Below, piece by piece: positions 19,854-54,785 of a stretch of DNA of 64,000 nucleotides. Made by a program: the position numbers and the translations under genes. How positions within the stretch are numbered: position 1 is the first letter of the stretch; every line of letters begins with the position of its first letter. This stretch comes from Clostridia bacterium (GTDB taxonomy: Bacteria > Bacillota > DSM-521 > Neomoorellales > SLTJ01). The DNA lies in assembly GCA_004347685.1 (NCBI GenBank), contig SLTJ01000041.1, positions 62,001 through 126,000 on the forward strand, in the 5' to 3' direction. The notes under the pieces are model-generated. The model saw nothing but the letters and a program-made list of their open reading frames with translations. It was not told the DNA's origin and searched no databases.

Positions 19854-20114
19854 ATGGAATACGTTTCTCCCACCCCCCGCGGGCAGGTGACCATCCCCAA
19901 ACGTATCCGGGACGCCCTGGGCCTCTCTCCAAAGACCAAGCTGCGGGTGTACGCCGAGGGTGACAGGGTGGTATTGGAACCGATTTCGCCCCTAGATCCC
20001 CTCATGGAATCCCTGGAAGCTGAAGCTAAGCAAAAGGGATACACCAGGGAAGACCTGGAGCGGGAAGTGGAGGCCGTCAGGGAGCATCTGGTCAAAAAAC
20101 TTTACGGAGAGTAA
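19854..20114 (+). CDS. AbrB/MazE/SpoVT-family antitoxin
   Basis: An 86-aa swapped-hairpin DNA-binding protein: TPRGQVTIPKRIRDALGLSP followed by KLRVYAEGDRVVLEPI is the AbrB signature. The C-terminal 35 residues (SLEAEAKQKGYTREDLEREV) form the acidic toxin-binding helix. It precedes a PIN toxin by three bases, so this is a second type II toxin-antitoxin pair, unrelated in fold on the antitoxin side to the one at 14.4 kb. Confidence 0.92.
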   Translation: MEYVSPTPRGQVTIPKRIRDALGLSPKTKLRVYAEGDRVVLEPISPLDPLMESLEAEAKQKGYTREDLEREVEAVREHLVKKLYGE

Positions 20115-20117
20115 CTT

Positions 20118-20528
20118 GTGCGCGTAATGTTGGATACCAACATCCTCATCTCGGGTATGGTGTTCATCGGGCCAGAGCGGCGCCTACTGGAACTCCTGAG
20201 AGAAGGGCATACCCTCTTGGTGAACGATTACCTTCTGGCCGAGGCTAGGGAAGTTCTGGCCCGCAAGTTTCCGGGCAAAGAACTGGTTCTTGACCAGATT
20301 CTTGAATCCTTGGCTATTAAAATGCTGCCACTGCCTCCGGCGGGAAAAGTGCGGGAGGCGGCACAGCGCCTCCGCGACCCGAAGGATGCTGTAGTCGTAG
20401 CTTCGGCGCTCGCCGCCTGCCCGGACATATTTGTGAGCGGGGATAAGGATCTTCACACTCCGGAAGTGCTGGCATTAGTACAGGTGTCTACTACCAGGGA
20501 GGCCCTGGCGCTACTGAAGAAGAAGTAA
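20118..20528 (+). CDS. PIN-domain toxin (VapC-like)
   Basis: A 136-aa PIN protein. The N-terminal MLDTNILISG supplies the first Asp; LLAEAREVLARKF carries the conserved Glu; RDPKDAVVVASA and FVSGDKDLHTPE supply the remaining acidic residues, so the metal site appears complete. The start is GTG with GGAGAG seven bases upstream. Its 3' end abuts the TnpB remnant. The partner antitoxin is the AbrB-type gene just upstream; RNA target unknown. Confidence 0.9.
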   Translation: MRVMLDTNILISGMVFIGPERRLLELLREGHTLLVNDYLLAEAREVLARKFPGKELVLDQILESLAIKMLPLPPAGKVREAAQRLRDPKDAVVVASALAACPDIFVSGDKDLHTPEVLALVQVSTTREALALLKKK

Positions 20529-21053: not shown

Positions 21054-22358
21054 ATGTTTGAACCGGCTATCACCAGGGTAAAGGATTGGGGGGACGGTTC
21101 CCTGTATCTAATTGATTTGCCGCAGGAACTGCGGGGGTACCACCACTTTATTTCTTCCTGGGCCATTAAGACCGAAACCGGCAACCTGCTGGTTGACGTA
21201 GGTCCGGCGGCCACAATCCCGTTGCTGCGCCAGGCCCTGAAAGACCTGGAGATTAACCGGGTGGACTATGTTCTCCTCACCCACATCCACATTGACCATG
21301 CCGGCGGGACCGGCCTCTTGCTCGAAACTTTTCCCCAGGCCAGGGTGGTGTGCCACCCTCCCAGCCAGAGGCACCTGCTGGATCCAGCCCGGCTCTGGCA
21401 AGGGAGCCTGGAGGTGCTGGGGGAGGTAGCGGTAAAATATGGGCCGATCAACCCGGTACCGGACGGTAGGCTGGCCGAAACCGCACCGGATGTAAAGGTT
21501 ATCTCCGCGCCGGGGCATGCCCCACACCACCTGGCCTTCCTTTACCGGGACTGCCTGTTTGCCGGTGAGGCCGGCGGCGTCTATTTTGATGTTGGGGAGG
21601 TCTACCTGCGCCCGGCTACCCCGCCCACATTTCTCCTGCCGGTGGCCATGGCTACCCTGGACCGGCTCCTCGCCTTTAATCTGGAGGGCTGCACGATATG
21701 TTACGGCCATTACGGCTGGGCATCGTCTGCGGCCAGGATGCTCGAGCGGCACCGCGGTCAGTTGCTGCTCTGGGACGAAGTGATCCCCCGGGTGGCCGGG
21801 AAAAGACCGGGAAGGAGTGACGGTGATAAGGAGCTGATTTCTGCGGTCTGGAAAGAACTGGAGGGTAGCGACGAACTTTTTGCTCGCTTTTATCTTCTCC
21901 CGGCCGACATCCAGGAACGGGAAAGGTACTTTATCACCAACAGCATCAAGGGTTTCCTGGGTTACCTCTTATCTGGCCCGGGCGATCAAGGGGCTAATGG
22001 CCCAGGTCACAACCAGGAGTATGAAGGCCGGAACCCAGGCCTGGGCCAGGAGCAGCGGCCAGGCGGTGGATACCTGTCCGGCAGCGGCCCGCAGACCCAC
22101 TGGCATGGCTCCCAAGGGGAGAAAGCGGCTGAAGGAAGCCATAAAGCTGCCCTCTGGCCAAGGGGAAAAGAGCCCGGCCAGGGCCAGCAGGGGGAACAGC
22201 ACCAGAACTGCGTACAGGTGCACCTGCACCCCGGAATCGGCCAGGCCGCCCAGGAACACCCCCAGCAGGTTGGCGGCCAGGAGGGAGAGCAGGCCCAGCA
22301 GCAAGAGGAAAGCAAAAGGGACAGGCCCGCCCTCATTCACGGCCGCGAACATCACTAA
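21054..22358 (+). CDS. Metallo-beta-lactamase-fold hydrolase with abnormal C-terminal read-through
   Basis: The first 305 or so residues form an MBL-fold enzyme: THIHIDHAGG (metal ligands HxHxDH), SAPGHAPHH, and CYGHYGWA supply the metal site. Substrate unknown; hydrolase or thioesterase families share this fold. The start is ATG 21054 with AGGACGGGG before it. The homologous part ends near SIKGFLGYL (about 21968). The frame then runs on for about 125 codons of Gly/Gln/His-rich sequence directly antisense to the ABC permease, codon boundaries in register, which looks like shadow translation after loss of a stop codon. The true protein may still be longer than relatives. Confidence 0.85.
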   Translation: MFEPAITRVKDWGDGSLYLIDLPQELRGYHHFISSWAIKTETGNLLVDVGPAATIPLLRQALKDLEINRVDYVLLTHIHIDHAGGTGLLLETFPQARVVCHPPSQRHLLDPARLWQGSLEVLGEVAVKYGPINPVPDGRLAETAPDVKVISAPGHAPHHLAFLYRDCLFAGEAGGVYFDVGEVYLRPATPPTFLLPVAMATLDRLLAFNLEGCTICYGHYGWASSAARMLERHRGQLLLWDEVIPRVAGKRPGRSDGDKELISAVWKELEGSDELFARFYLLPADIQERERYFITNSIKGFLGYLLSGPGDQGANGPGHNQEYEGRNPGLGQEQRPGGGYLSGSGPQTHWHGSQGEKAAEGSHKAALWPRGKEPGQGQQGEQHQNCVQVHLHPGIGQAAQEHPQQVGGQEGEQAQQQEESKRDRPALIHGREHH

Positions 22359-22676
22359 TACAGGCAACACCTGGAGCAGCCCGAGAAGGGTGCGGACGAG
22401 GGCGGGTTCCAGGATGCAGCGGCGGGGAGAGCGTGGCGTGAGGAACAGCCTGGCCAGCGCGCCCTGCTGCCGGTCCTGGGCCAGGCTGGCTCCGCTCCCG
22501 AAGACGCCGGTAAAAGCGACCAGCAGTGTGATTACGGTCGCCGTCACCCCGGGCGGGGTCGTGCCCAGGAGCATGTGGGCGGTCAGGGCCCCGGGGTACA
22601 CCAGCTTCAGGGCCAAGCTGCGCCGGTCCCGGGTGATTTCAAGGAGTTCCTTCTGCCACATACTGGTTGGCAACAT
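21969..22676 (-). CDS. ABC-2 / CcmB-like transporter permease
   Basis: About 235 aa with six hydrophobic helices. After a short cytoplasmic start (MWQKELLEITRDRRSLALKL), helices include VTATVITLLVAFTGVFGSGA, FLLLLGLLSLLAANLLGVFL and WPLLLAQAWVPAFILLVVTW; LAQDRQQGALARLFLTP lies in a loop typical of ABC-2 and heme-exporter-type CcmB permeases. It overlaps the upstream ATPase gene slightly, so the two form one transporter. The start is ATG 22676 or ATG 22661. The cargo is unknown; no cytochrome c maturation genes lie nearby, so a heme role is not supported. Confidence 0.85.
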   Translation of the reverse strand: MLPTSMWQKELLEITRDRRSLALKLVYPGALTAHMLLGTTPPGVTATVITLLVAFTGVFGSGASLAQDRQQGALARLFLTPRSPRRCILEPALVRTLLGLLQVLPVLVMFAAVNEGGPVPFAFLLLLGLLSLLAANLLGVFLGGLADSGVQVHLYAVLVLFPLLALAGLFSPWPEGSFMASFSRFLPLGAMPVGLRAAAGQVSTAWPLLLAQAWVPAFILLVVTWAISPLIARAR

Positions 22677-23613
22677 CTCGGGGCATCTCCTCTCCGGTGA
22701 GTTGCAGGAAGACATCTCCCAGGTGGGGCTCGGCTACCTGAAGGGACAGGAGGCGCCCGCCTGCCTCACCCACGGCTTCCACTACTCGTGCCAGGAGGCC
22801 GTCGTGCGGGACGGCCCATATCTGCAGTTTGTCTTCCACCTGGGCCACCTGCTCTACCCCGCTTACTTGTAGCAGATAGGCGGCCACCCGGGATACCCGG
22901 CCAGCCAGGGCGATCTGTACCCGCACCCTGGCCCGCAGGGGAGCGAGCAGGGCCTCGGGCGAGCCCTGAGCCACCAGGCGCCCGCGGCTGAGGAAGACAA
23001 CCCGGTCGCAGACCGTTTCTGCCTCCCGGACATCATTGGTGGCCACCATTACCGTCACCCCGTTTTCCCGCGCCAGTTGTCGCAGCTGCTGCCACAGCTT
23101 GACCTGGGCCGGGTAGTCCAGGCCCGGGGACGGCTCATCCAGGAGGAGCACCGGCGGCCGGTGCACCAGGGCTTCAATGAGGCTGAGCTTTCGCCGCATG
23201 CCGTAGGAGTAGCCGCGAACCAGGTCGCAGGCTTCAGCCTCGAGCTGGGCCCATTCAAACAGGGCCTTGAGGCGCAACATTATCTCCTCCCGGGGCAGGC
23301 CGAAGCTCGCGGCCCAGAGCCAGGCGTTTTCGCAGCCAGTAAGATGGTCGAAATGGGCGTCCGGCTGCAACACTACCCCCAGGAGCTGGCGCAACCGGGC
23401 CTCGTTACCGGATGCTACACCCAGGATCCGGTACCGCCCCCGGGTGGGGCGGTACCAGGTGGCCAGGACCTTCAAGAGGGTGGATTTACCGGAGCCGTTC
23501 GGCCCCAAAAGCCCTACTATCTCTCCCCTGGCCACCCGGAGATCTATTCCACCGATGCCCGGGTGGCGGCCATAGTCGTAGGTTAGGTTTTCAATTTCTA
23601 TGGCAAGATCCAT
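22639..23613 (-). CDS. ABC transporter ATP-binding protein
   Basis: A 324-aa ATPase with Walker A GLLGPNGSGKSTLLKVL, a Q-loop at VVLQ, the signature region YSYGMRRKLSLIEAL (SYGMRRK in place of LSGGQ), Walker B VLLLDEPSPGLD and a switch His replaced by an MVATND segment. The last 95 residues form an extra domain common in drug and Na+ exporters of the CcmA/NatA type. It precedes and overlaps its permease. An export role is likely; substrate not deducible. Confidence 0.9.
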   Translation of the reverse strand: MDLAIEIENLTYDYGRHPGIGGIDLRVARGEIVGLLGPNGSGKSTLLKVLATWYRPTRGRYRILGVASGNEARLRQLLGVVLQPDAHFDHLTGCENAWLWAASFGLPREEIMLRLKALFEWAQLEAEACDLVRGYSYGMRRKLSLIEALVHRPPVLLLDEPSPGLDYPAQVKLWQQLRQLARENGVTVMVATNDVREAETVCDRVVFLSRGRLVAQGSPEALLAPLRARVRVQIALAGRVSRVAAYLLQVSGVEQVAQVEDKLQIWAVPHDGLLARVVEAVGEAGGRLLSLQVAEPHLGDVFLQLTGEEMPRDVANQYVAEGTP

Positions 23614-23625
23614 GGGGACAGCCCT

Positions 23626-23823
23626 TTAAATAAAGTTAAACTGGGTATGTTTGGTCACCAGCACCGGGCCGGCGGGGACGGTTTCAGCTACCTCATAGAC
23701 CAGAACACTGTCTCCCGGCGCCAGCATCTTGCCCTGGGCCTGGGCCACGGCAATGTGGCGGTGGAAATCAGGCGCTAGCTTTTTCAGCTTCCGCAACACC
23801 ACTATCTTGGCTTGAGCTGGCAT
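23626..23823 (-). CDS. Small conserved-looking hypothetical protein (65 aa)
   Basis: The translation begins MPAQAKIVVLRKLKKLAPDF and ends GPVLVTKHTQFNFI; a KMLAPGDSVLVYEVAET stretch suggests a small beta-barrel. I do not recognise a family. Its coding start lies inside the 3' end of the preceding stress-protein gene (55-base overlap), where a perfect GGAGGTG site occurs ahead of ATG 23823; such a site within a coding region argues the gene is real. It ends 12 bases before the ABC ATPase gene. Confidence 0.6.
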   Translation of the reverse strand: MPAQAKIVVLRKLKKLAPDFHRHIAVAQAQGKMLAPGDSVLVYEVAETVPAGPVLVTKHTQFNFI

Positions 23824-24823
23824 GGCCGGCATCACCTCCAGCACATATAAGGACGTTGGTCGGGGCCAGGCGATAAATGTTTTCCGCGTTGCTGCCGATC
23901 TCGGCCCCGGGAGTGAAATGCAGGCCGTACCGGCCCATCACTACCAGGGCGGGCCTGGTCTGCTCCACGTGCTCGAGGAAGGTGGCGAAGATTTTACCGC
24001 TGAGGATTTTCGTATGGAGATCCACCCCGTGCTGAGCGGCCAGAGCCCGGGCCTGCCGCAGGTAACCCTCCCCCACCTTGCTCAGGCCCATGTTGATAAT
24101 CTCGTCGTGGAGTTTCTGCTGTTCCTGGAACCTGAAGACGGACGCTGCTTCGGGGGACAAAACCTCAGCCAGGCGGCTGAAGGCCACGTCGTGGAAAAAG
24201 GGGTCGTAGACGTAAATGGCCTCTACCTGAGAGTTATAGGCCCGGGCCAGGAACAAGGCCTTTTTAAGCGCCTGGAACGAGTAGTCGCTGCCGTCAATAC
24301 CTGCCAGGATCCGGCCCCCCTCCATGCCGTCTACATGGCGCACCACCAGAACGTCCTTTCTCATCCGCCGTACCGCGCGCTCGCAGACACTGCCCACCGG
24401 CGCCTGCTCGAACTTGCCCAAACCGCGGGCCCCAAGCACCACTAGGTCATACCCGTTGCGGTTGGCTTCGGCGGCTATTTCATGGAAATGTTTCCCCTCC
24501 ACTACTTTGCTGCTCGACTGCACTCCGGCTTCTGACGTGCGGCGAGAAAAGTCCTCGAGATAGGAATGAGAGATGAGTTCCAAGCCGTGCCGGATCAAGC
24601 CATCATGAATGCGCCGCTGCCGGGCTAGTTCTGCCGGCTCTTGGTAATTGGCCGGCAGGCCCGCCTCCATGCGCTGGAACGCCCGGTCGTGGAGGCTGGC
24701 GGCGTAGACGTGCATGCCGACTATCTCACGGCAGGAGGTCTTCCTGCCGATGTCAATGGCAACCTGGACGCACAAGGGGGCCCAGTCTGAATTGTCCAGG
24801 GGCAGGAGAATGTGACTGTACAC
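23768..24823 (-). CDS. Tandem universal stress protein (two UspA domains)
   Basis: A 351-aa protein with two UspA folds. The first starts with YSHILLPLDNSDWAPLCVQV and ends near DLVVLGARGLGKFEQAPVGS and RKDVLVVR; the second starts GGRILAGIDGSDYSFQALKK and contains ALVVMGRYGLH, then PTNVLICAGG. The Gly-rich ATP-binding motif (GxxGxG-like) is present in domain one and weaker in domain two. The start is GTG 24823 with GGAGGTGAG upstream. It follows the CydA-like gene by 157 bases, so a stress-response link to that enzyme is possible. The last 25 residues exceed the domain and overlap the next gene. Confidence 0.92.
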   Translation of the reverse strand: MYSHILLPLDNSDWAPLCVQVAIDIGRKTSCREIVGMHVYAASLHDRAFQRMEAGLPANYQEPAELARQRRIHDGLIRHGLELISHSYLEDFSRRTSEAGVQSSSKVVEGKHFHEIAAEANRNGYDLVVLGARGLGKFEQAPVGSVCERAVRRMRKDVLVVRHVDGMEGGRILAGIDGSDYSFQALKKALFLARAYNSQVEAIYVYDPFFHDVAFSRLAEVLSPEAASVFRFQEQQKLHDEIINMGLSKVGEGYLRQARALAAQHGVDLHTKILSGKIFATFLEHVEQTRPALVVMGRYGLHFTPGAEIGSNAENIYRLAPTNVLICAGGDAGHASSSQDSGVAEAEKASA

Positions 24824-24980: not shown

Positions 24981-26564
24981 TTAGACGCCGGCTGCCTGGG
25001 TCACCCGGGCCCTCACCGGCTCCATGGCAGGCGCCGCCTCCACTGCCGGCACATGGGTGAGCTTCAGGCCGATGAGGATAAAGATCGCGTCCAGGATAAC
25101 GGCTACGGTCACCACCAGGAGGACATGGCCGGCTGTGGTCTCCATGCCAGTGGGGGCCGTGGAGTGCGGTGCCATGTCCGCGATCCGCATCACTCCCGGA
25201 ACCAGGTAGGGGAACCTGGCCATTTCCCGCACAAAGCCCATGACTCCGATGGTATAGGTCACGATTATCGAGGTGACCATGGCCGCGTAGTAGCCCCATG
25301 CAGGAATGTCCACGCTGAAGTCAATTCCCTTGGACTTCTGCACGTAGTTCACCACGGCGATAAGGGCCCCGGTGACTAGAAACACCAGCCCTATGTAGTC
25401 CTCGGTCATCCCGCCGATGTTTACCACCAGGAGCAAGCCACCCACCAACTGGAGCATAAGGCTACCGTAGCCCACGGTCCCGCCGTTGGCCCGGCGCACG
25501 AAGTAGGCCGAGGTGGCAATGACCATGAGGCTCAGGAAGGCTACCAGAGCGGTGAAGGTCCAGTTCTTGGTAATCATAATGTTGGTGAAAGGGGCGTACA
25601 TGGTGCCGGCACCGTTGCCGGTGAGGGCCTGGTACAACTGCGGGATGGCCTGGCCAAAGGACTGCTGGTAATCCCTGATGGCGCTCACATACTCAAAGCC
25701 GATGAGGGGCATGAAGAAGACCGGGATCACGCCCCACAGCAGGCTGTAGCCGGTGGCCCAGTTGTAGAAGGAACGGGATTCGGACTGCCTGTCCCTCAGG
25801 GCGTAAAAGGCCATTACTGCGGCAAAAAGAAAACCGACAAAGCTAATATTGGCTACAAACCGGTGTAGGTTAAGGATCATCCAGGTAGGATTACCTAAAT
25901 AAAGGAGGCTGGCGGCCAGTCCCAGACTGATTTCCGGCAACTGCTTGATCCCACCTGAGGCCAGGTCCTGCAGGACGGGCACCAGCCCTTCCGGAGGGGT
26001 AAGCATGATGGCGCCGACGCCGTTGATGATGAGCATGGTTATGGTGCCAAAGATGATGTTACCCACACCCAGGGAGAGGTGCAACCCGCGGCGGTCAGCC
26101 ATGCGGTCCCACATGTACCAGTAGGCATAGAGGGTGGCCGCCTCCAGGAAGAACATAATTCCTTCCAAAACCAGCGGCCAGGTAAAGATATTGACCCCCA
26201 ACATCCAGAAACCTGGTGTCAGGGCGGCAAAAAGTACCACAATTACCACGCCGAAGGTGGCGCCGACGCTAAAGACGATGGCCGTGAACTTCAGGACGGT
26301 CTTGGCGAAACGGTCGTAGCGGAGATCCCGGCGCACCGTGCCGAGGATCTCGCTGATCAGAGCCACAATCGGCCCGCCAAGGGAAATGGCCGGAAAAATA
26401 ACATGGCCGACGGCAAAGGCGCCGATGGCAAAGTTCCTCCCGAGAATGGGGAACTCATGTACGGGCAGGATGGCCTCGACCTGGGCCATGGCTGTCCGCG
26501 ACGCTAGCAGTGATACGATTCCCAGCACTGCTGCCGCGAGCAACAAAACGTTTCGTTTGTTCAT
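24981..26564 (-). CDS. Orphan CydA-like cytochrome bd family subunit
   Basis: A 527-aa membrane protein with about nine to ten helices, related to CydA. Matches to E. coli CydA, by my alignment: His54 in VGHVIFP (His19, heme b595), Glu134 and Glu141 in LEGIMFFLEA (E99, E107, spaced seven rather than eight), His234 in LNLHRFVANISFV (His186), Met370 (Met393), and Glu447/Arg450 in REMARFP (E445, R448 of GRQP). The quinol-binding Q-loop is not recognisable. It starts with a signal-like hydrophobic N-terminus ending near TAMAQ, unusual for CydA. No cydB lies anywhere nearby. GRQPW is replaced by MARFPY. The SD is AAGGGGAGGATAGG. Whether it reduces O2 is open. Confidence 0.8.
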   Translation of the reverse strand: MNKRNVLLLAAAVLGIVSLLASRTAMAQVEAILPVHEFPILGRNFAIGAFAVGHVIFPAISLGGPIVALISEILGTVRRDLRYDRFAKTVLKFTAIVFSVGATFGVVIVVLFAALTPGFWMLGVNIFTWPLVLEGIMFFLEAATLYAYWYMWDRMADRRGLHLSLGVGNIIFGTITMLIINGVGAIMLTPPEGLVPVLQDLASGGIKQLPEISLGLAASLLYLGNPTWMILNLHRFVANISFVGFLFAAVMAFYALRDRQSESRSFYNWATGYSLLWGVIPVFFMPLIGFEYVSAIRDYQQSFGQAIPQLYQALTGNGAGTMYAPFTNIMITKNWTFTALVAFLSLMVIATSAYFVRRANGGTVGYGSLMLQLVGGLLLVVNIGGMTEDYIGLVFLVTGALIAVVNYVQKSKGIDFSVDIPAWGYYAAMVTSIIVTYTIGVMGFVREMARFPYLVPGVMRIADMAPHSTAPTGMETTAGHVLLVVTVAVILDAIFILIGLKLTHVPAVEAAPAMEPVRARVTQAAGV

Positions 26565-27022: not shown

Positions 27023-27418
27023 TCAGCCGGCAACTATCTCCTGGATGCTCAGTTTCTGCAATTCCTCCAGAAAGGCCATTTGCGCCCGCACCCAGACCGG
27101 GTGTGCCGGACAAAAGCCCACGCGTTCACACGTCGTCCCTTCCAGCAAGCAGCGGTTAAGGGCCACTGGGCCTTCCACCGCCTCGATAACGTCACGCAGG
27201 GTTATCGCGAAGGCCGGACGCGCCAGGCGGAGGCCGCCTCTGGCCCCCCGCGCAGTCTCCACCAGGCCGGCCCGGCTCAGGCATCCTACTGTCTTGTGGA
27301 AAAAAGCTTCTGGTATCCCCTGCCGTTCAGCCACCTCCCTCGCCGCCTGCCACTCGTCATGAACCGCCAGGTCAAGGACGATCCTGACCGCATAATCACC
27401 TTGCCTTGTAAGCTGCAA
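27023..27418 (-). CDS. Rrf2-family transcriptional regulator with cysteine cluster
   Basis: A 131-aa winged-helix protein: QLTRQGDYAVRIVLDLA is the typical Rrf2 N-terminus, and PEAFFHKTVGCLSRAGLVET is the recognition region. CLLEGTTC-ERVGFC places three cysteines (CX6CX5C) where IscR/NsrR bind an Fe-S cluster, so it may sense O2, NO or iron status. The start is TTG 27418 with AAAGGGAG upstream; an ATG further out lacks an SD. It is upstream of, and co-directional with, the CydA-like gene, so control of that gene by O2 or NO sensing is the obvious hypothesis. Confidence 0.9.
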   Translation of the reverse strand: MQLTRQGDYAVRIVLDLAVHDEWQAAREVAERQGIPEAFFHKTVGCLSRAGLVETARGARGGLRLARPAFAITLRDVIEAVEGPVALNRCLLEGTTCERVGFCPAHPVWVRAQMAFLEELQKLSIQEIVAG

Positions 27419-27512
27419 TGGAGCTCCCTTTTTCATTGAGGATATTATGGATCTCTTTGGTTAGTATTCTCGCTCACAACAAAAATTCCTGCTGGGGCAC
27501 AAAATTTTTTTT

Positions 27513-45815: not shown

Positions 45816-47747
45816 TTACCTCCCTCCCCTATTTTCCACGTAAGGGCGTACCCGCCCCTCCAGGTGGTACTGGCGGTTATACCCCAGTAGCCGGCAGCAG
45901 AATATGGCCAGCTTTACTGGCCACGGAGAAAGCCTGCGCCGCAGCTCCAGCCTTTCCTCCTGTAGGTCGGCGATCATTTGCTGCAAATCCTGGTTGGCAG
46001 CCAGAGATGACTGCAGGCGCTTTTCCGTCTCCTTCAGTTTCTCTTTCAAACCCGCGTACTCTGCCTGGGACTTGCTCAAAGCATTGTTAAATGACCCCTG
46101 CAACTGCAGCACCCGGGATTCCAGTTGCCCGGCCCGGCTGCTGAGGGCTTCCTTTTCCGCCTGCAAGGCACTAGCTTCCTCCTCGGCCCGCTGCAGTTCA
46201 GCCCGGAGCTGCTCCTTGCGCCGGTGTAGTTTTTCCATTTCTGCCCGTAACTGCTGGTTTTCCGCAGCCAACTGCTGCACCCTGGCTTGCAAAAAGCCCC
46301 AGTTCTGTTCCTGCAAGCGCAGCTGCTCCAGCTCACTGAGGAGGCTGTCCTTTTCATCCATCAGCAGGCGGGTTTCCTCGAGGGCCGCGGCCACTTCCTC
46401 CCTGACCGTGTGGATTTCTTCCTGCCACCGGTCCCAGGCTTCCTTGGTACGGCTGTTAAAACACCACGTCTGCCCGGCCACTTCCTCGAAAAAGGGAAAT
46501 TTCCGCAGGATCTCGCCCACTTCCCCGCTCCGCGCCGGATCCAAGTTTTCAACTATCCGGACGATTTCTTGCTCTCCCAGCCCTTCGGGGAACCGCTCCA
46601 GGATGCGGGCTAAAAACACCTCCCCAGGCCAGGTGGCCGCATTGTCTTCCGCCTGCCACCGCTCCAGTTCCCGCACCCGCTCGGCCTCAGCGTAGACCTC
46701 GGCCTCCCGCTCGCCGGTGTGGACCATCTCGTAGGTCTGGGCCAGGTCGGCTACCTTTCTTACCTCCAGCTTGCTGCCGGGGGCAAGCTGGCACCGCTCA
46801 AACCATTCCCTTAAGCCGGAGATCAACTTCTCCTCCTGCCAGTACCAGGCATCAACCGGCCCGGTCGGAGTATAAAACTGCAGCCAGGCTATTGGCGGCA
46901 GCGAGCCGAAAAACTTTTCCAGCCGCCGGTTGACCCGCAATATTCCGCGGGCCAAATCCATGGAGCTCAGGATGTAAACCCGCCGGTTGGGGTCATTGTC
47001 CTGAAAGGTGAGCATGAGCTCGGCTCCCTGCAGGGCCGCCTCTTCGGGCTGCCGCAAAAAATCCCACGGGTCCTCCACAGCCAGATCCAGATCGCGCAGG
47101 GGGGGCAGGCTTTCCTTCAAGAACCAGAAATCACCCCCCACCCAGACAAACCGGGGGTCTCCTTCCAGACAGGCCGGGAGATCGCTTTCTTCCAGAGGCA
47201 CCTCCAGAACTTCTGCGGCCAACTCGGCCAAAGCTAAGGGCACAGATGACCGGCGCAGGGCGGAAGCCACCCGGTCTATTTCCCGCTCCGAAACAGCATG
47301 TTTCAATCTCCAGGCCACCGGCATCCACTTGCCCCCTTTGAGGCGGAGAAACCGGCCGTCGTACACCAATTGCCTCTCCCCACCAATGGCCTGCCCCCGG
47401 CCGGTCAGGGCCGCATTGATTTCTGCCAGGGTCATGGGTGACCCAATTTCTTTCAAAACCTGGTAGGCCGTGGCATTGGCCGGGTTGCCGTTCAGATCCA
47501 GGGCCCACAGGCCCCGGCTCTGCTCGTAGAAAGACGAGTTCTTCTGTAGGCATCGTAAAACATTTTTTTCCAGCCGGTTCGGGCTCGTTTTTCCCCCCAG
47601 GCGCAGCCTGGCCTGAGGCAGCATCTCACTTACCGACTGCGGCTCATATTGAAAGAGGAGTTGTTTGAGAATATCGGTCAGAGAATCTGGCCGACCGCTG
47701 ATAATGGGGTTAGGATTAACCACCTTCTTTTTCAATGCACCCACCAC
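45816..47747 (-). CDS. Uncharacterised protein: four winged-helix-like modules plus long coiled coil
   Basis: A 643-aa protein I cannot place in a named family. Segments at about 22-85, 92-146, 152-212 and 372-431 each look like a winged-helix/HARE-HTH module, ending in an aromatic strand such as FYEQSRGLWALD, FLRLKGGKWMPVAW, FVWVGGDFWFLKE and FEEVAGQTWCFN. Between modules three and four, residues about 225-360 form an unassigned alpha/beta region. Residues about 436-605 are a continuous coiled coil (Leu/Glu/Gln heptads), followed by a hydrophobic, cysteine-containing end WPVKLAIFCCRLLGYNRQ. No enzyme motif is seen. It is a lone gene, converging with rqcH. The start is GTG 47747 or TTG 47735. 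A DNA- or RNA-binding scaffold is my inference. Confidence 0.7.
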   Translation of the reverse strand: MVGALKKKVVNPNPIISGRPDSLTDILKQLLFQYEPQSVSEMLPQARLRLGGKTSPNRLEKNVLRCLQKNSSFYEQSRGLWALDLNGNPANATAYQVLKEIGSPMTLAEINAALTGRGQAIGGERQLVYDGRFLRLKGGKWMPVAWRLKHAVSEREIDRVASALRRSSVPLALAELAAEVLEVPLEESDLPACLEGDPRFVWVGGDFWFLKESLPPLRDLDLAVEDPWDFLRQPEEAALQGAELMLTFQDNDPNRRVYILSSMDLARGILRVNRRLEKFFGSLPPIAWLQFYTPTGPVDAWYWQEEKLISGLREWFERCQLAPGSKLEVRKVADLAQTYEMVHTGEREAEVYAEAERVRELERWQAEDNAATWPGEVFLARILERFPEGLGEQEIVRIVENLDPARSGEVGEILRKFPFFEEVAGQTWCFNSRTKEAWDRWQEEIHTVREEVAAALEETRLLMDEKDSLLSELEQLRLQEQNWGFLQARVQQLAAENQQLRAEMEKLHRRKEQLRAELQRAEEEASALQAEKEALSSRAGQLESRVLQLQGSFNNALSKSQAEYAGLKEKLKETEKRLQSSLAANQDLQQMIADLQEERLELRRRLSPWPVKLAIFCCRLLGYNRQYHLEGRVRPYVENRGGR

Positions 47748-47858
47748 CTACCTAATTTGGAAGAACATGTAATTCAGATTAGACAAGCATAGCCCTATTT
47801 CCTTCGGGAAAATTGCCTTCTTTTGTCACACCGGTCCAAAAGTGGAGCCATAGGGCAC

Positions 47859-47887
47859 TTGACAATGGATTAACTGAATGGCAAAAT
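47859..47887 (+). promoter_or_regulatory. Promoter of the 130-aa flavin-fold gene
   Basis: TTGACA, 17 bases, CAAAAT, followed 40 bases later by the ATG. The -35 is perfect and the -10 is weak. Confidence 0.7.
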
Positions 47888-47926
47888 TATTAGTGGTTGG
47901 ACAAAAATAACGGAGGAGGCTCACGC

Positions 47927-48319
47927 ATGGCCGTACTTACCGAGGAAATGAAGAAAATGATTGGCGAGCAGCAATGTTTTATCGCCACCGCGGACAAGGC
48001 AGGGCACCCCAACATCGGCCCCAAGAGGTCTACCCGCGTGCTGGACGATGAAACCATCATGTTTGTGGAGGCCACGGCCAAGAAAACTTACGCCAACGTT
48101 AAGGAGAACCCGCAGGTGGCCATTGCCGTAGTGGAAAAGGGAAAAATGGATGGCTACCGCTTCGTGGGCCCGGCCCAGGTCATAGAGTCCGGCGAACTCT
48201 TTGACAAGGTGTCGGCAGAAATGCAAAAGGCCGGTATCAAGCCGGTAGCCGTGGTGACGGTGAAGGTGGACGAAATCTACTCCCTTAAGCCCGGCAAGGC
48301 AGGCGAGCGGATAGCGTAA
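47927..48319 (+). CDS. Pyridoxamine 5'-phosphate oxidase-like flavin-binding protein (130 aa)
   Basis: A short split-barrel protein: CFIATADKAGHPNIGPKRST, TIMFVEATAKKTYANVKENP and RFVGPAQVIESGELF are the conserved FMN-binding elements; it lacks any extra domain. A strong GGAGGAGG precedes ATG 47927. Family members bind FMN and reduce small substrates, with unknown specificity. It is unrelated in gene neighbourhood to the 163-aa homologue at 30.3 kb; the two share only the fold. Confidence 0.88.
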   Translation: MAVLTEEMKKMIGEQQCFIATADKAGHPNIGPKRSTRVLDDETIMFVEATAKKTYANVKENPQVAIAVVEKGKMDGYRFVGPAQVIESGELFDKVSAEMQKAGIKPVAVVTVKVDEIYSLKPGKAGERIA

Positions 48320-48371
48320 CCCTCGGACCATGGTCGGGCGACGCCGGCCCGGAGGGAGAAGGTCCTGCCCC

Positions 48372-49548
<1,177 letters not shown>

Positions 49549-49565
<17 letters not shown>

Positions 49566-50010
49566 GTTCAGAACCGGCCTCGCTTTGACCAAAGACGGTG
49601 ACGGCCAGCAACAGCACCCCGATAACGATGGCCACATCCGCCAGGTTAAAAATAGGCCAGAACCGCAAATCAATGAAGTCAATCACATAACCCAGGCGCA
49701 CCCGGTCCACGAAGTTCCCCAGGGCCCCGCCCACCTGCAGGCCCAGAGAAACGCTTAACCAGGGAACCTGCCTGCCGGCCCGGTGGTAGATCAGAAACAG
49801 CAGGGCGATTACCGCCACGGTGACGACCACGAAGAAGGAGGTGCGGTCAGGAAACAAGCCAAAGGCTGCCCCTGAGTTTTGGGCATATGTCATATATACC
49901 GCGCCATTGATGACCGGAGTGCTTTCTCCAGGGATCATAAGCCGATCAACGATTATTTTCGTAGTCTGATCGAGGCCAAAGGCCATGACCAGGGCCAGCC
50001 AGAAGCGCAA
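49549..50010 (-). CDS. lspA: Lipoprotein signal peptidase (prolipoprotein peptidase II)
   Basis: Cleaves the signal peptide of lipidated prolipoproteins. Four membrane helices; the conserved boxes are GLDQTTKII, NSGAAFGLF, GGALGNFVDRVRLGYVIDF (catalytic Asp121) and FNLADVAI (Asp135). The start is TTG 50010 with GGAGG seven bases before it; the longer ORF upstream is antisense shadow of thiD. 153 aa is normal. Substrates here include the DUF4247 lipoprotein. Confidence 0.97.
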
Positions 50011-50089
50011 GTACTTTCCTCCCCCGGATAGTTTTTCGCCTGGGGCCCACCGTGGTCCCGCCCCTATTTTAGCACAAAGCTTCACATAA

Positions 50090-50899
50090 CTACAAGCCGG
50101 GTGCCAGACCCCGCCAGACCCCGCCAGGGTCGAGTACGGGGTACCCCTTCCCCAGCCGCAGGGCCCGGCTGATGGCCCTGGCCACCAAGGCTTTGGCCCG
50201 CCAGGCCGCGTCTGGCGGCGACAGTCCCCGGGCCAGGTAACAGACCAGGGCCGCGGACAGGACACAGCCGGTCCCGTGGGCCGTCCCGGGGAAACGAGGG
50301 CCTGTCAGCCAGTAAAACCGGCCCCGGCGGCAGTCGTACAGGAAATCGAGAGCCGTACCGGAGGCGCCGAAATGCCCCCCTTTGGCCAGGACAAACCCGA
50401 CCCCGGTTTTTCTCAAAGAGGCGGCCGCTTCCTGCCAGTCGGCCGGGGACCTTATCCTGCCTCCGGCCAAAATCTCCAGTTCCGCCAGGTTGGGAGTAAC
50501 CGCCCGGGCCAGGGGCAGGAGCTCCTTGGTCAGTGCCGTCACTGCTTCCGGCGCCAGCAGGCGGTGGCCGCTGGTAGAGACCATGACCGGGTCCACCACC
50601 AGGCTGGCCGGAGCCACCGGAGCCAGAAACGAGGCCACTACCTGCACAGTAGCGGCATCGGCCAGCATCCCGGTTTTGACCGCCACCGGTCTGAGATCGT
50701 TCCAGACCGCCTCCAACTGCGCCCGCACCATTTCCGGGGGCAACACATGCACGCCGGTCACTCCGGCAGTGTTCTGCGCGGTGACGGCGGTAATGCAGGT
50801 GGTGCCCCAAAAACCCAGGGTCTTAAACGCTTTTAGATCCGCCTGGATGCCGGCCCCGCCCCCGGAATCCGACCCGGCAATGGTAAGCGCTACCTGCAT
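50090..50899 (-). CDS. thiD: Hydroxymethylpyrimidine/phosphomethylpyrimidine kinase
   Basis: Thiamine biosynthesis: phosphorylates HMP to HMP-PP in two steps. ALTIAGSDSGGGAGIQADLK at the start and VVDPVMVSTSGHRLL, then TPNLAELEILAG and GTGCVLSAALVCYLARG (anion hole/catalytic Asp region) are family motifs. 269 aa. It is the only thiamine gene in the window and sits inside the ileS-lspA operon, an unusual position. No TPP riboswitch is visible in the 83-base gap upstream. Confidence 0.95.
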   Translation of the reverse strand: MQVALTIAGSDSGGGAGIQADLKAFKTLGFWGTTCITAVTAQNTAGVTGVHVLPPEMVRAQLEAVWNDLRPVAVKTGMLADAATVQVVASFLAPVAPASLVVDPVMVSTSGHRLLAPEAVTALTKELLPLARAVTPNLAELEILAGGRIRSPADWQEAAASLRKTGVGFVLAKGGHFGASGTALDFLYDCRRGRFYWLTGPRFPGTAHGTGCVLSAALVCYLARGLSPPDAAWRAKALVARAISRALRLGKGYPVLDPGGVWRGLAPGL

Positions 50900-50982
50900 T
50901 ATCTTACCTCCCCCAGGTCCAGCAAACGCTCCGCCAAGCCAGGATATGCGCTTCGTACCGCCGGAACCAAAACGGCAAACGC

Positions 50983-51591
50983 CTATTCCACCGGCCAGGC
51001 ATCGCTCTCCGGCCGGCCACCCTTCTCTTTCCTCTTATCTTCGTAAAACATGCCGGTATCAGCGTCCCGGTAGTAAGGGATCTCGTCCACTGCCTCGACT
51101 GCTCCCCGGTCTTCTTCCCTGGCCGCATCGTCGCCGTAATAACTCCCGGCTCCAGCCCCCTCGGCGTGTTCGTTCCACCGGGCCACTTCCTGCCAGGCAT
51201 CTTCGTCGTCATATCCGACCTGTTTATCGTAATCCTGCCGGGGGAAGGGTGGGTTAAGTATGTCCTCCTCGACCGGCCGCCCGTACCGGCTGTCTTCCTG
51301 CTCCACCCGAGCCTGGCACTCCAAGCAGTAGGCGGCCTCCGGCTCCACCGCGAGCCGATCCGGGTCAATGGGCCGGCCGCAGCGCTGGCACAGACCGTAT
51401 CCCCCTTGTTCCAGGCGCTGCCTGGCAGCTTCGATCTTCTCCAGCCTGAGGCTGAACATGTCCCGCAGGCTCAGATCTTTGCTCCGCTCAAAGGTTTCGC
51501 TGCCTACGTCACCTGGATGGTTATCGTAAAGGGAAAGTTCGCCAATTGACGTTCCCTCAGGCTTTCCCAGCCCGGCCCGGAGCGTGGTCAA
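50983..51591 (-). CDS. DksA/TraR-type zinc-finger protein, YteA family
   Basis: A 202-aa protein with a C4 zinc finger (CQRCGRPIDPDRLAVE then CLEC) between helical parts; ELSLYDNHPGDVGSETFERS is the YteA core. The C-terminal 90 residues are acidic and variable. The called TTG at 51591 cuts the family's N-terminal coiled-coil arm, which the frame continues upstream as QDQEYFRQRLEEARKETL back to an ACG at 51654; AGAGGGG lies just ahead of that ACG, so a non-canonical start is possible. It follows the DUF5665 gene and precedes thiD. Function in Firmicutes is unproven. Confidence 0.85.
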   Translation of the reverse strand: MTTLRAGLGKPEGTSIGELSLYDNHPGDVGSETFERSKDLSLRDMFSLRLEKIEAARQRLEQGGYGLCQRCGRPIDPDRLAVEPEAAYCLECQARVEQEDSRYGRPVEEDILNPPFPRQDYDKQVGYDDEDAWQEVARWNEHAEGAGAGSYYGDDAAREEDRGAVEAVDEIPYYRDADTGMFYEDKRKEKGGRPESDAWPVE

Positions 51592-51681
51592 ACGGGTCAG
51601 GGTTTCCTTCCTCGCCTCTTCCAGCCGCTGGCGAAAATATTCTTGGTCCTGCGTAGGCTTGCCCCTCTCTTATTCTGCTTT

Positions 51682-51984
51682 TCACGGCAGCGAACGGTTC
51701 ATGACCATCTTCACGATCTCGGCAATAAAGGAACTTATCCCCGGAAGGTTGAGGAGGACTACCCAGCGCAGGATATAAATCACCAGGGCCCCCAGGACGG
51801 TGAACCCCACCGCCATACCCAGGCCCCGGGCCAGACCGGCCATGAAGTTCACCGCCAGCATCCGCCTGGGGTGGCTGAGCATGTCCAGGTACTCACCCAA
51901 CTGCAACTGCTCCAGGTTATGGGCAAACTGCACCAACTGGCGGTAAAGACGCTGTTCTACTACCGGTAGCCGTCGCTCGCGCAC
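51682..51984 (-). CDS. DUF5665 membrane protein
   Basis: A 100-aa protein with one strong hydrophobic helix pair: residues about 45-80 contain AGLARGLGMAVGFTVLGALV and VVLLNLPGISSFIAEIVK. The N-terminal half is charged (VEQRLYRQLVQFAHNLEQLQ). The start is GTG 51984 with TGGAGG nine bases upstream; the longer ORF starting within ileS is a shadow. It matches the small DUF5665 family of Clostridia. Gene order ileS-DUF5665-yteA is common there. No activity known. Confidence 0.85.
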   Translation of the reverse strand: MRERRLPVVEQRLYRQLVQFAHNLEQLQLGEYLDMLSHPRRMLAVNFMAGLARGLGMAVGFTVLGALVIYILRWVVLLNLPGISSFIAEIVKMVMNRSLP

Positions 51985-52016
51985 GACCCAAGGCCTCCAG
52001 GCATAATTTGCCCATC

Positions 52017-54785
52017 TCAGGCCGGAATATGCCCCTGCTGCCGCAGCACCTCCAGGCAGCGCCGGCATAAATCCTGGTGCTGCGGGTCTTCCCCCACCGT
52101 GGGGTGGTAGATCCAGCACCGGCCGCAGCGCAGGCCCCCAGCCGGCTCCACCGCCACCCGCACCCCTTTTTCTCCGGTCGGCGCCTCCTGCAGTTCTATC
52201 TGGGAGACAATGAGGATCGCGGGCAGGTCCGCGGCCAGCGACCGGTAAAAGGCATAGTCCTCTGATCCGCAGGTAACGACTACCTTGCCCTCCAGGCGCT
52301 GGCCAATGGTCTTTTCCCGCACCGCCACCTCCACTTCCTGGTTTACCTTCTCCCGCAGGTCCAGGAGGCGCTCCCACCGGGTCTCGAGGTCGGGGTCAAG
52401 CAACTCGGAGTTAACCTCGGGCCAGCCGGCAAGCTGTACGCTCAGCGGCGCCCCGGGAGTCTTCGGCAGATAACGCCAAATCTCCTCGGTGGTGAAAGCC
52501 AGGATAGGGGCCAGCATGCGGACCAGGTCGTAGGCCAGGCGCCAGAGGACAGTCTGGGCCGAACGCCGTTCCCGGGAGGTGGCCAAGGAGGTATAGAGGC
52601 GGTCCTTGATCACGTCCAGGTAGAAACCACTCAGGTCGGTAACGCAGAACCGGTGCAGGGCAAAGAAGGCGTGGTGAAACTCGTACTCCACGAAGTGCTG
52701 CGTCACCTGCGCGATCACCTGCTGCAAGCGCAGCATGGCCCACCGGTCTATTTCCAGCCATTGTTCCGCCGGCAGGTCGTCCTGGCCGGGGGTGAAATCG
52801 TATAGGTTGGCCAGGAGAAACCTCACCGTATTGCGTATCTTCCGGTAGGAATCAGCCACCTGCTGGAAGATATTGCGGGAGGCCGAAACATCGCGCCGGT
52901 AGTCAGCCGAAGCCACCCACAGCCGCAGGATGTCCGCCCCCAGTTCCTGCACCACCTCGGCCGGATCAATCCCGTTGCCCAGTGATTTGGACATCTTCCG
53001 GCCCTGCTCGTCCACCACGTAGCCGTGGGTGAGCACGATCCGGTACGGCGCCCGGCCCCGGGTGGCCACCGCCGTGGAGAGGGAGGAGTTAAACCATCCC
53101 CGGTGTTGGTCACTGCCCTCCAGGTACAGGTCCGCCGGCCAGCCCAGCTCGGGCCGGGTCTCGAGCACTCCGGCGTGGCTGCTGCCGGAATCAAACCAGA
53201 CGTCCATGGTATCAGTTTCCTTGCGGAACTCGCGGCCGCCGCAAGCGGGGCAAGTAAAGCCGGGAGGCAACAGGTCACGGGCCTCCCGCTCAAACCAGGC
53301 GTCGGACCCGTGTTCGCGAAAGATTTCCTGCACCCGGCGGATGACATCTTCCCCCATCACCGGCTGCTCACAGGCGAGGCAATAGAAAACCGGGATGGGA
53401 ACGCCCCAGGTACGCTGGCGGGAAATGCACCAGTCGCTGCGATTGGCTATCATGTTGTAGATACGTTCCTGGCCCCAGGCCGGGATCCATCTTACCCGCT
53501 CGATTTCCTCCAGGGCGCGCTGGCGAAAACCGTCAATGGAAGCGAACCACTGCCTGGTAGCCCGGAAAATCACCGGCTCTTTGCAGCGCCAGCAGTGCGG
53601 GTACTGGTGTTCCAGCCACCCCCGCCCGAGCAGGAGGCCCGCCTGCTCCAGGCGCTCCATAATGGGCCGGTTGGCCTCAGCATACAAAAGCCCCTGCCAG
53701 TCCGGCTCCGCCCCGGTAAACCGGCCCTGGTCGTCCAGGGGGCTGTATACTTCGAGCTGGTAGCGCTGCCCCACTTCGTAATCCTCCAGCCCGTGGCCCG
53801 GAGCGGTATGGACGCAGCCGGTACCCTGTTCCAGAGTAACATGGTCGCCCAGGATCACTGGCGATTCCAGCTCCGGATGGAGTGGATGGCGGCAGATTAT
53901 GCCCTCCAGGGCCTGGCCGGAGAACTCACCCTCCACCTGCCAATCGGCCAGGCCCAGGTGTTCCATGACCGGGGGAACGAGCTCCCGGGCCACCAGAAGC
54001 CGGCCAGCGGAGGTGCGGACCAGGTCATAGGTAAAGCGGGGGTTCACGGCCACCGCCCGGTTGGCCGGCAGGGTCCAGGGCGTGGTGGTCCAGATCAGCA
54101 CGTAATTCTCTCCCGCCGGCAAGCGGCCCCGGCCCTCCTGAACCTGGAACTTGACATAAATGGAAGGTGAGCGGTCCAGCTCGTACTCCACTTCCGCTTC
54201 GGCCAGGGCTGTTTCACAACCGGGACACCAGTAGACCGGCTTGTGGCCGCGGTAGATGAAGCCCCTGGCTGCCATCTGGCCGAAGACCCCGATCTGGGCG
54301 GCTTCAAACTCGGGCTCCAGGGTCAGGTAGGGGCGCTCCCAGTCGCCTCGTACGCCTAGCCGGCGAAACTGGCGCCGCTGCACGTCCACGTATTTGCGGG
54401 CGTAGTCACGACAGCGGCGGCGAAATTCCACCGCGGAAATCCGGCTCCGGTCCAACCCCAAATCCTTGATGGCCTGCTGCTCGATGGGCAAGCCGTGGGT
54501 ATCCCAGCCCGGGACATATGGGGCCTCCTCTCCCCGCATGGAGTGGAATTTTACCACCATATCCTTGAGGATCTTATTGAGGGCCGTGCCGAGGTGAATA
54601 TCGCCATTGGCGTAAGGCGGGCCGTCATGAAGAATGAAACGGGGTCGTCCCCGGTTTTGCTGCTGTGCCTTCTGGTAGATGTCTGTTTCGTCCCAGAAGC
54701 GCATTATCTCAGGCTCACGCTGCGGCAGGCGCGCCCGCATGGGGAAATCCGTCCTTGGCAGGTTTACTGTCTGGCTGTAGTCCAA
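52017..54785 (-). CDS. ileS: Isoleucyl-tRNA synthetase
   Basis: Class Ia synthetase, 922 aa. GDIHLGTALNKILKDMV (HIGH), GRKMSKSLGNGIDPAE (KMSKS), an editing domain between about 190 and 390, an anticodon-binding region, and a C-terminal zinc motif CGRCWIYHP with CRRC. Bacterial-type (IleS1). No T-box leader: only 54 bases separate it from the upstream gene, so it cannot be controlled by a standard T-box. Confidence 0.99.
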   Translation of the reverse strand: MDYSQTVNLPRTDFPMRARLPQREPEIMRFWDETDIYQKAQQQNRGRPRFILHDGPPYANGDIHLGTALNKILKDMVVKFHSMRGEEAPYVPGWDTHGLPIEQQAIKDLGLDRSRISAVEFRRRCRDYARKYVDVQRRQFRRLGVRGDWERPYLTLEPEFEAAQIGVFGQMAARGFIYRGHKPVYWCPGCETALAEAEVEYELDRSPSIYVKFQVQEGRGRLPAGENYVLIWTTTPWTLPANRAVAVNPRFTYDLVRTSAGRLLVARELVPPVMEHLGLADWQVEGEFSGQALEGIICRHPLHPELESPVILGDHVTLEQGTGCVHTAPGHGLEDYEVGQRYQLEVYSPLDDQGRFTGAEPDWQGLLYAEANRPIMERLEQAGLLLGRGWLEHQYPHCWRCKEPVIFRATRQWFASIDGFRQRALEEIERVRWIPAWGQERIYNMIANRSDWCISRQRTWGVPIPVFYCLACEQPVMGEDVIRRVQEIFREHGSDAWFEREARDLLPPGFTCPACGGREFRKETDTMDVWFDSGSSHAGVLETRPELGWPADLYLEGSDQHRGWFNSSLSTAVATRGRAPYRIVLTHGYVVDEQGRKMSKSLGNGIDPAEVVQELGADILRLWVASADYRRDVSASRNIFQQVADSYRKIRNTVRFLLANLYDFTPGQDDLPAEQWLEIDRWAMLRLQQVIAQVTQHFVEYEFHHAFFALHRFCVTDLSGFYLDVIKDRLYTSLATSRERRSAQTVLWRLAYDLVRMLAPILAFTTEEIWRYLPKTPGAPLSVQLAGWPEVNSELLDPDLETRWERLLDLREKVNQEVEVAVREKTIGQRLEGKVVVTCGSEDYAFYRSLAADLPAILIVSQIELQEAPTGEKGVRVAVEPAGGLRCGRCWIYHPTVGEDPQHQDLCRRCLEVLRQQGHIPA

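Follow-up and report, generated by a model that had tools for sequence, protein, structure and literature searches.

The CydA-like gene and its neighborhood

The window, that is, the whole stretch of 64,000 nucleotides of a Clostridia bacterium that was analysed, contains at positions 24981-26564 an intact open reading frame on the minus strand that encodes a protein of 527 amino acids, P0001; the plus strand is interrupted there by stop codons. The original prediction of a CydA-like gene at this site accordingly holds for the gene itself, an intact CydA homologue, provided that it is read on the minus strand. P0001 is a member of the superfamily of cytochrome bd subunit I: PF01654 matches residues 49-491 with an E-value of 6.8e-25 and a score of 87.9 bits, the cut-off being 26.2, and in sequence comparison the first half of the protein matches solved bd oxidases. 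An AlphaFold2 model obtained with 38 input sequences has a mean pLDDT of 75, and its significant matches in the PDB are subunit I chains of bd oxidases and no others. The gene lies on a chromosomal contig of 127 kb, with RNase J-like and TypA-like neighbors recognized by eye. Comparison with a close relative, encoded at the locus L061 in a MAG of Nitrospirota, gives a pN of 0.23 against a saturated pS of 0.86, which indicates strong purifying selection. Between them, the long contig with its ordinary chromosomal neighbors and the strong constraint rule out a pseudogene or an assembly artefact.

All the genes of the cluster are on the minus strand. An Rrf2-family regulator with three cysteines, a possible further member of the unit, is encoded on the same strand 458 bp upstream (27023-27436; PF02082, E-value 3e-34; NCBIfam rrf2_super above its cut-off), and promoter and inverted-repeat scans of the intervening gap yielded nothing convincing. 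The next gene downstream encodes a tandem-domain universal stress protein (Usp) of 351 aa with two PF00582 matches (23768-24823), followed by a DrrA-like ABC transporter ATPase of 324 aa (22639-23613; PF00005) and an ABC-2 type permease of 248 aa (21969-22715; PF01061), the start of which overlaps the ATPase gene. At L061, the same three genes follow the cydA-like gene in the same order and orientation, with products that are 42%, 39% and 35% identical, respectively, to those of the window. The stress protein beside the oxidase gene, which had been pointed out at the outset, is retained at the locus in both genomes. The L061 contig stops 156 bases upstream of its cydA-like gene. Elsewhere in the window, at 19854-20528 on the plus strand, a small AbrB-like and PIN-domain-like pair resembles, by eye, a VapBC-type toxin-antitoxin module.

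The group labels OR-N, OR-N5 and OR-C were assigned in this analysis from literature descriptions and gene context. OR-N is the later name for the bd-like oxidases, for which a cytochrome c donor and CydAA' pairing have been supposed, both unconfirmed (PMC10839748, PMC12342949). No full-length homologue of the tandem Usp was detected in the 21 other genomes of the window's class; this distribution points to joint movement of the oxidase and Usp genes at least. Three further Nitrospirota genomes (L202, L203 and L204) likewise encode a tandem Usp with the same construction near an OR-N gene, so that the link to Usp recurs in a second OR-N lineage. Also encoded at these three loci are molybdopterin oxidoreductase subunits, a radical SAM (SPASM) protein and two monoheme cytochromes c; in contrast to the Nitrospirota OR-N loci, the P0001 cluster contains no gene for a c-type cytochrome. 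About 3.8 kb downstream, the Nitrospirota MAG encodes a protein of the hemerythrin family. A protein of 220-229 aa with no Pfam match is found near the OR-N-type gene both at L061:4766-5428 and at L203:10665-11354, the two versions being 60% identical.

Quinol site, heme ligands and N-terminus

The motif QPxK..E, present in 11 of the 11 qOR comparison proteins, occurs in neither P0001 nor its relative (0 of 2), and GRQPW is not present in P0001. At the place of the periplasmic Q-loop of qOR, the AlphaFold2 model and hydropathy predict two extra membrane helices, residues 335-358 and 362-380, that form a helical hairpin (25425-25562, minus strand). The proposed lack of a recognizable quinol-binding loop is borne out by these observations, and the replacement of the loop by the hairpin argues against an electron supply from quinol at the usual site. 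The general architecture was already known, since the Nitrospina gracilis genome paper describes bd-like oxidases of Nitrospina and Nitrospira that have three helices at the place of the Q-loop and have lost all quinol residues (PMC3578206).

In a column-by-column alignment table, P0001 and its relative both keep His54, Glu134, Glu141, His234, Met386, Glu447 and Arg450, and the predicted heme-ligand set is complete. His54 (26403-26405; this and all following codons on the minus strand) shares its column with H19, a heme ligand at the active site of E. coli CydA, and is kept in nearly all families; Glu134 and Glu141 (26142-26165) are the equivalents of E99 and E107, and Glu447-Met-Ala-Arg450 of the REMARFP motif (25215-25226) contains those of E445 and R448. 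His234 (25863-25865) is aligned with the heme b558 ligand H186 and Met386 (25407-25409) with the b558 ligand M393 of E. coli; the methionine is shared by the L061 relative, qOR and the long OR-N proteins, and both the b558 His and Met are missing from OR-C. The ligands originally named are the same with a single exception: Met370 is replaced by Ala in the relative, and it is Met386 that occupies the M393 column.

The spacing between the two active-site glutamates had been read as one residue short, which proved mistaken. A spacing of 7 is usual in Geobacillus-type qOR, OR-C and OR-N5, and 8 is found in the E. coli-like branch alone. In the long Nitrospirota OR-N proteins, the E99 column holds Tyr or Phe (15 of 15 sampled) and the E445 column mostly Ser. 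OR-N5a proteins have the active-site set but lack the b558 Met in this alignment, and a paralogue accompanies them. The sampled Nitrospirota OR-N either lack the E99/E445 glutamates or come as paralogue pairs, in contrast to P0001, which has all ligands and no paralogue.

The supposedly added, signal-like N-terminus corresponds to a real hydrophobic segment, residues 1-27 (26484-26564, minus strand), detected by hydropathy and alignment. Such an extension is common to most of the sampled Nitrospirota OR-N proteins and is therefore a trait of the group, not an oddity of P0001. The protein contains no cysteine and no CxxCH motif. Four histidines, residues 504, 480 and 467 (25053-25166) and 36 (26457-26459), are kept in both members of the lineage and are absent from nearly all comparison families. 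They may be candidate extra metal or heme sites, although with two sequences at 67% identity their conservation could be due to chance.

Partner genes and distribution

The host genome is 99% complete, with 0.16% contamination. Whole-genome profile searches found in it neither a match to CydB (PF02322), which is matched in 10 of 14 control genomes, nor a second CydA (PF01654) protein; one PF01654 protein is encoded in the host and one in the Nitrospirota MAG. The original prediction, based on the absence of cydB nearby, of an orphan subunit is thus valid genome-wide and not just within the window, and the search for a distant CydB-like partner that it called for had a negative outcome. These results rule out a canonical quinol oxidase with a CydB encoded elsewhere. 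The host does possess a cytochrome c maturation cluster encoding CcmF/NrfE, NrfF/CcmH, CcmA, CcmB and CcmC-like proteins (G000:C1, about 47500-53600; L259:13548-19564), so, to judge by its genes, it can probably make c-type cytochromes.

A scan of GTDB contigs returned one close relative among the matches listed, the Nitrospirota protein, which is 67% identical to P0001 over nearly the full length. No homologue was detected in the 21 other genomes of the window's class, and the matches in 398 other genomes of the phylum Bacillota are of the qOR type or OR-C, with low identity and partial length, none being comparable (the best, E-value 2.5e-18, is a qOR-type protein). Likewise, no further close copy was found in about 395 other genomes of Nitrospirota or in 149 others from the order of the MAG, and no close relatives were found in viral contigs and plasmids. 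Two sequences, P0001 and its L061 relative, define the lineage as sampled here. Base composition gives no signal of a recent transfer of the gene, the GC content of 59% here and 44% in L061 tracking that of each host.

Phylogenetic placement

A tree of the CydA superfamily, a step suggested by the original prediction, was built under a mixture model from 47 proteins, with a comparison set drawn from Bacillota, Nitrospirota and many other phyla and without reference OR-N3 and OR-N4 sequences. In this tree, P0001 and its relative form a separate branch (100/100) that is excluded from both the qOR clade (100/100) and the OR-C clade (100/100). The branch is sister to the long Nitrospirota OR-N proteins with support of 88/82, which drops to 73 (141 of 200 bootstraps) upon addition of the OR-N5-type pairs (L246, L247 and L249, located beside alternative complex III in Nitrospirales; the label is from PMC12342949). 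In approximately unbiased (AU) tests, qOR, OR-C and OR-N5 as alternative sisters were not rejected (p 0.16-0.28). The two proteins can safely be called a separate deep lineage. It most likely lies on the OR-N side of the superfamily and, at bootstrap values of 73-88, is probably an early offshoot of the OR-N or "bd-like" oxidases that have no quinol site. With no cydB elsewhere in the genome and no place in the canonical quinol oxidase clade, the view of P0001 as a divergent member of the bd superfamily that lacks a quinol site stands.

Two narrower assignments were considered and dropped. Membership in OR-N5a was suggested by the shared active-site set; the sister relation has no support in the tree (9 of 200 bootstraps), although it survives the AU test (p 0.276). 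Membership in OR-C was suspected from the EFPxxG and REMAR-type motifs; P0001 has no fused heme c and keeps the b558 ligands.

Proposed function and alternative interpretations

From the features of the protein and of the locus, we infer its heme content, O2 reduction, electron donor and physiological role. The reading that we favor, and that we consider evenly poised between right and wrong, is that P0001 is a quinol-site-less, OR-N-like O2 reductase subunit of the bd superfamily that works without CydB or a CydA paralogue and draws on a non-quinol donor. Four core helices would hold the two active-site hemes through H54, E134, E141 and E447, and H234 and M386 would bind the third heme, of the b558 type, from which electrons reach the active site. 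The source of these electrons would most likely be a c-type cytochrome or another periplasmic carrier, and in an anaerobic host the enzyme would serve to clear trace O2, possibly NO, as opposed to supporting growth. The family and fold, the complete ligands, the missing QPxK..E motif, the helical hairpin, the lack of both CydB and a paralogue, the position on the OR-N side of the tree, the cytochrome c maturation genes and the strong purifying selection all count in favor of this proposal, as do the conserved cluster with a stress protein and the hemerythrin-family protein in the Nitrospirota MAG. The absence of a cytochrome c gene from the cluster, the AU p-values and the two-sequence lineage count against it. 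A different electron donor or a role in O2/NO detoxification, as originally put forward, is what we likewise infer. It also weighs against the proposal that no one-subunit bd-type enzyme is known to have been purified. A bolder version, in which P0001 represents a previously undescribed, self-sufficient lineage of one-gene, CydB-free and paralogue-free O2 reductases with three hemes, a non-quinol donor and a dedicated Usp/ABC cluster, the lineage having moved between Nitrospirota and Bacillota or having reached both from an unsampled source, is in our estimation a tentative and rather doubtful one.

Catalysis itself can be questioned. Many Nitrospirota OR-N proteins lack E99 and E445 and are encoded beside Mo-oxidoreductase and cytochrome c genes, which makes roles other than that of an oxidase plausible in this group; combined with the Usp linkage and with a cluster that offers no partner or donor gene, this would be compatible with P0001 being a heme-bearing membrane conduit or a redox or gas sensor that either sends signals to the tandem Usp or is itself under its control. 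We regard such a function as unlikely because P0001, in contrast to those relatives, retains all the active-site residues, and this retention under strong purifying selection argues for catalysis rather than mere conduction of electrons. The identity of the donor is the other point of contention. The b558 ligand pair, which in qOR holds the heme that accepts electrons from quinol, is complete in P0001, and the AU tests do not reject a sister relation to qOR (p 0.16 and 0.24); both points speak for a menaquinol oxidase with a quinol site rebuilt without a Q-loop. Set against the absence of QPxK..E and GRQPW, the helices at the place of the loop and the position outside the qOR clade, this interpretation appears distinctly improbable.

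The substrate, finally, could be mainly NO or peroxide, the enzyme serving against nitrosative stress under the control of an NsrR-like sensor. The upstream regulator is indeed of the Rrf2 type with three cysteines, and the NsrR model is among those that match it (E-value 5e-16); however, the RirA and IscR models score better, none of the three curated cut-offs is reached, nothing else in the cluster was recognized as nitrosative, and bd active sites reduce O2 by default. Even though bd oxidases take part in NO detoxification (PMC10839748), we consider this specialization very unlikely.

Comparison with known bd-type systems

With the subunit I of qOR, as represented by the structures from Geobacillus (5doq) and M. 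smegmatis (9r2g), P0001 shares the core fold and all the heme ligands and, with the Geobacillus type, the Glu-Glu spacing of 7; unlike qOR, it has no Q-loop, QPxK..E, GRQPW or CydB. The OR-C proteins of Bacillus, Paenibacillus and many phyla resemble it in the EFPxxG start, the active-site Glu pair and the RExxR-P motif but possess a C-terminal heme c (CxxCH in 14 of 14), lack the b558 His and mostly have a CydA' gene next door. In this group, a second divergent CydA-like gene often lies directly after the gene with fused heme c (L009 and L069-L140; Bacillus, Paenibacillus and others). Two further loci, L198 (a frame of 891 aa, minus strand) and L205 (884 aa, plus strand), encode an OR-C-type CydA with a long C-terminal stretch containing many CxxCH motifs, an apparent fusion of oxidase and multiheme cytochrome that recurs in the order of the Nitrospirota MAG.

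With the OR-N proteins of Nitrospirota and Nitrospinota (PMC3578206, PMC10839748, PMC12342949), P0001 has in common the signal-like N-terminus, the (E)FPxxG start and the HR motif with the b558 His and Met; like them, it has lost the quinol motif, has additional membrane helices at the place of the Q-loop, and lacks both CydB and a fused heme c. Unlike the long Nitrospirota OR-N, it still has Glu at both the E99 and the E445 position; it is a single gene without a paralogue, has two extra helices instead of three, resides in a host from Bacillota, and has ABC transporter genes for neighbors in place of cytochrome c. OR-N5a has the same Glu, His and Arg residues at the active site and resembles P0001 in its core motif (FWPxxLEGxxFFxEA); it differs in its adjacent paralogue (5b), in the missing Met where the b558 ligand aligns and in the unsupported sister relation. 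The CydAA' pairing of paralogues in OR-N is a published hypothesis and not a proven definition of the group (PMC10839748), and the composition, function or O2 affinity of quinol-site-less bd-like proteins are called unconfirmed or unknown in the literature (PMC10839748, PMC12342949, PMC3578206).

P0001 extends these proteins to Bacillota. Most of the sampled quinol-site-less bd-like proteins either occur as paralogue pairs in large nitrifier or alternative complex III clusters or have lost the active-site glutamates; P0001 is the simplest-looking member of this poorly understood group. As a single gene that keeps every heme ligand, it offers the least complicated system for finding out whether O2 reduction by a bd-type protein requires CydB, a paralogue or quinol.
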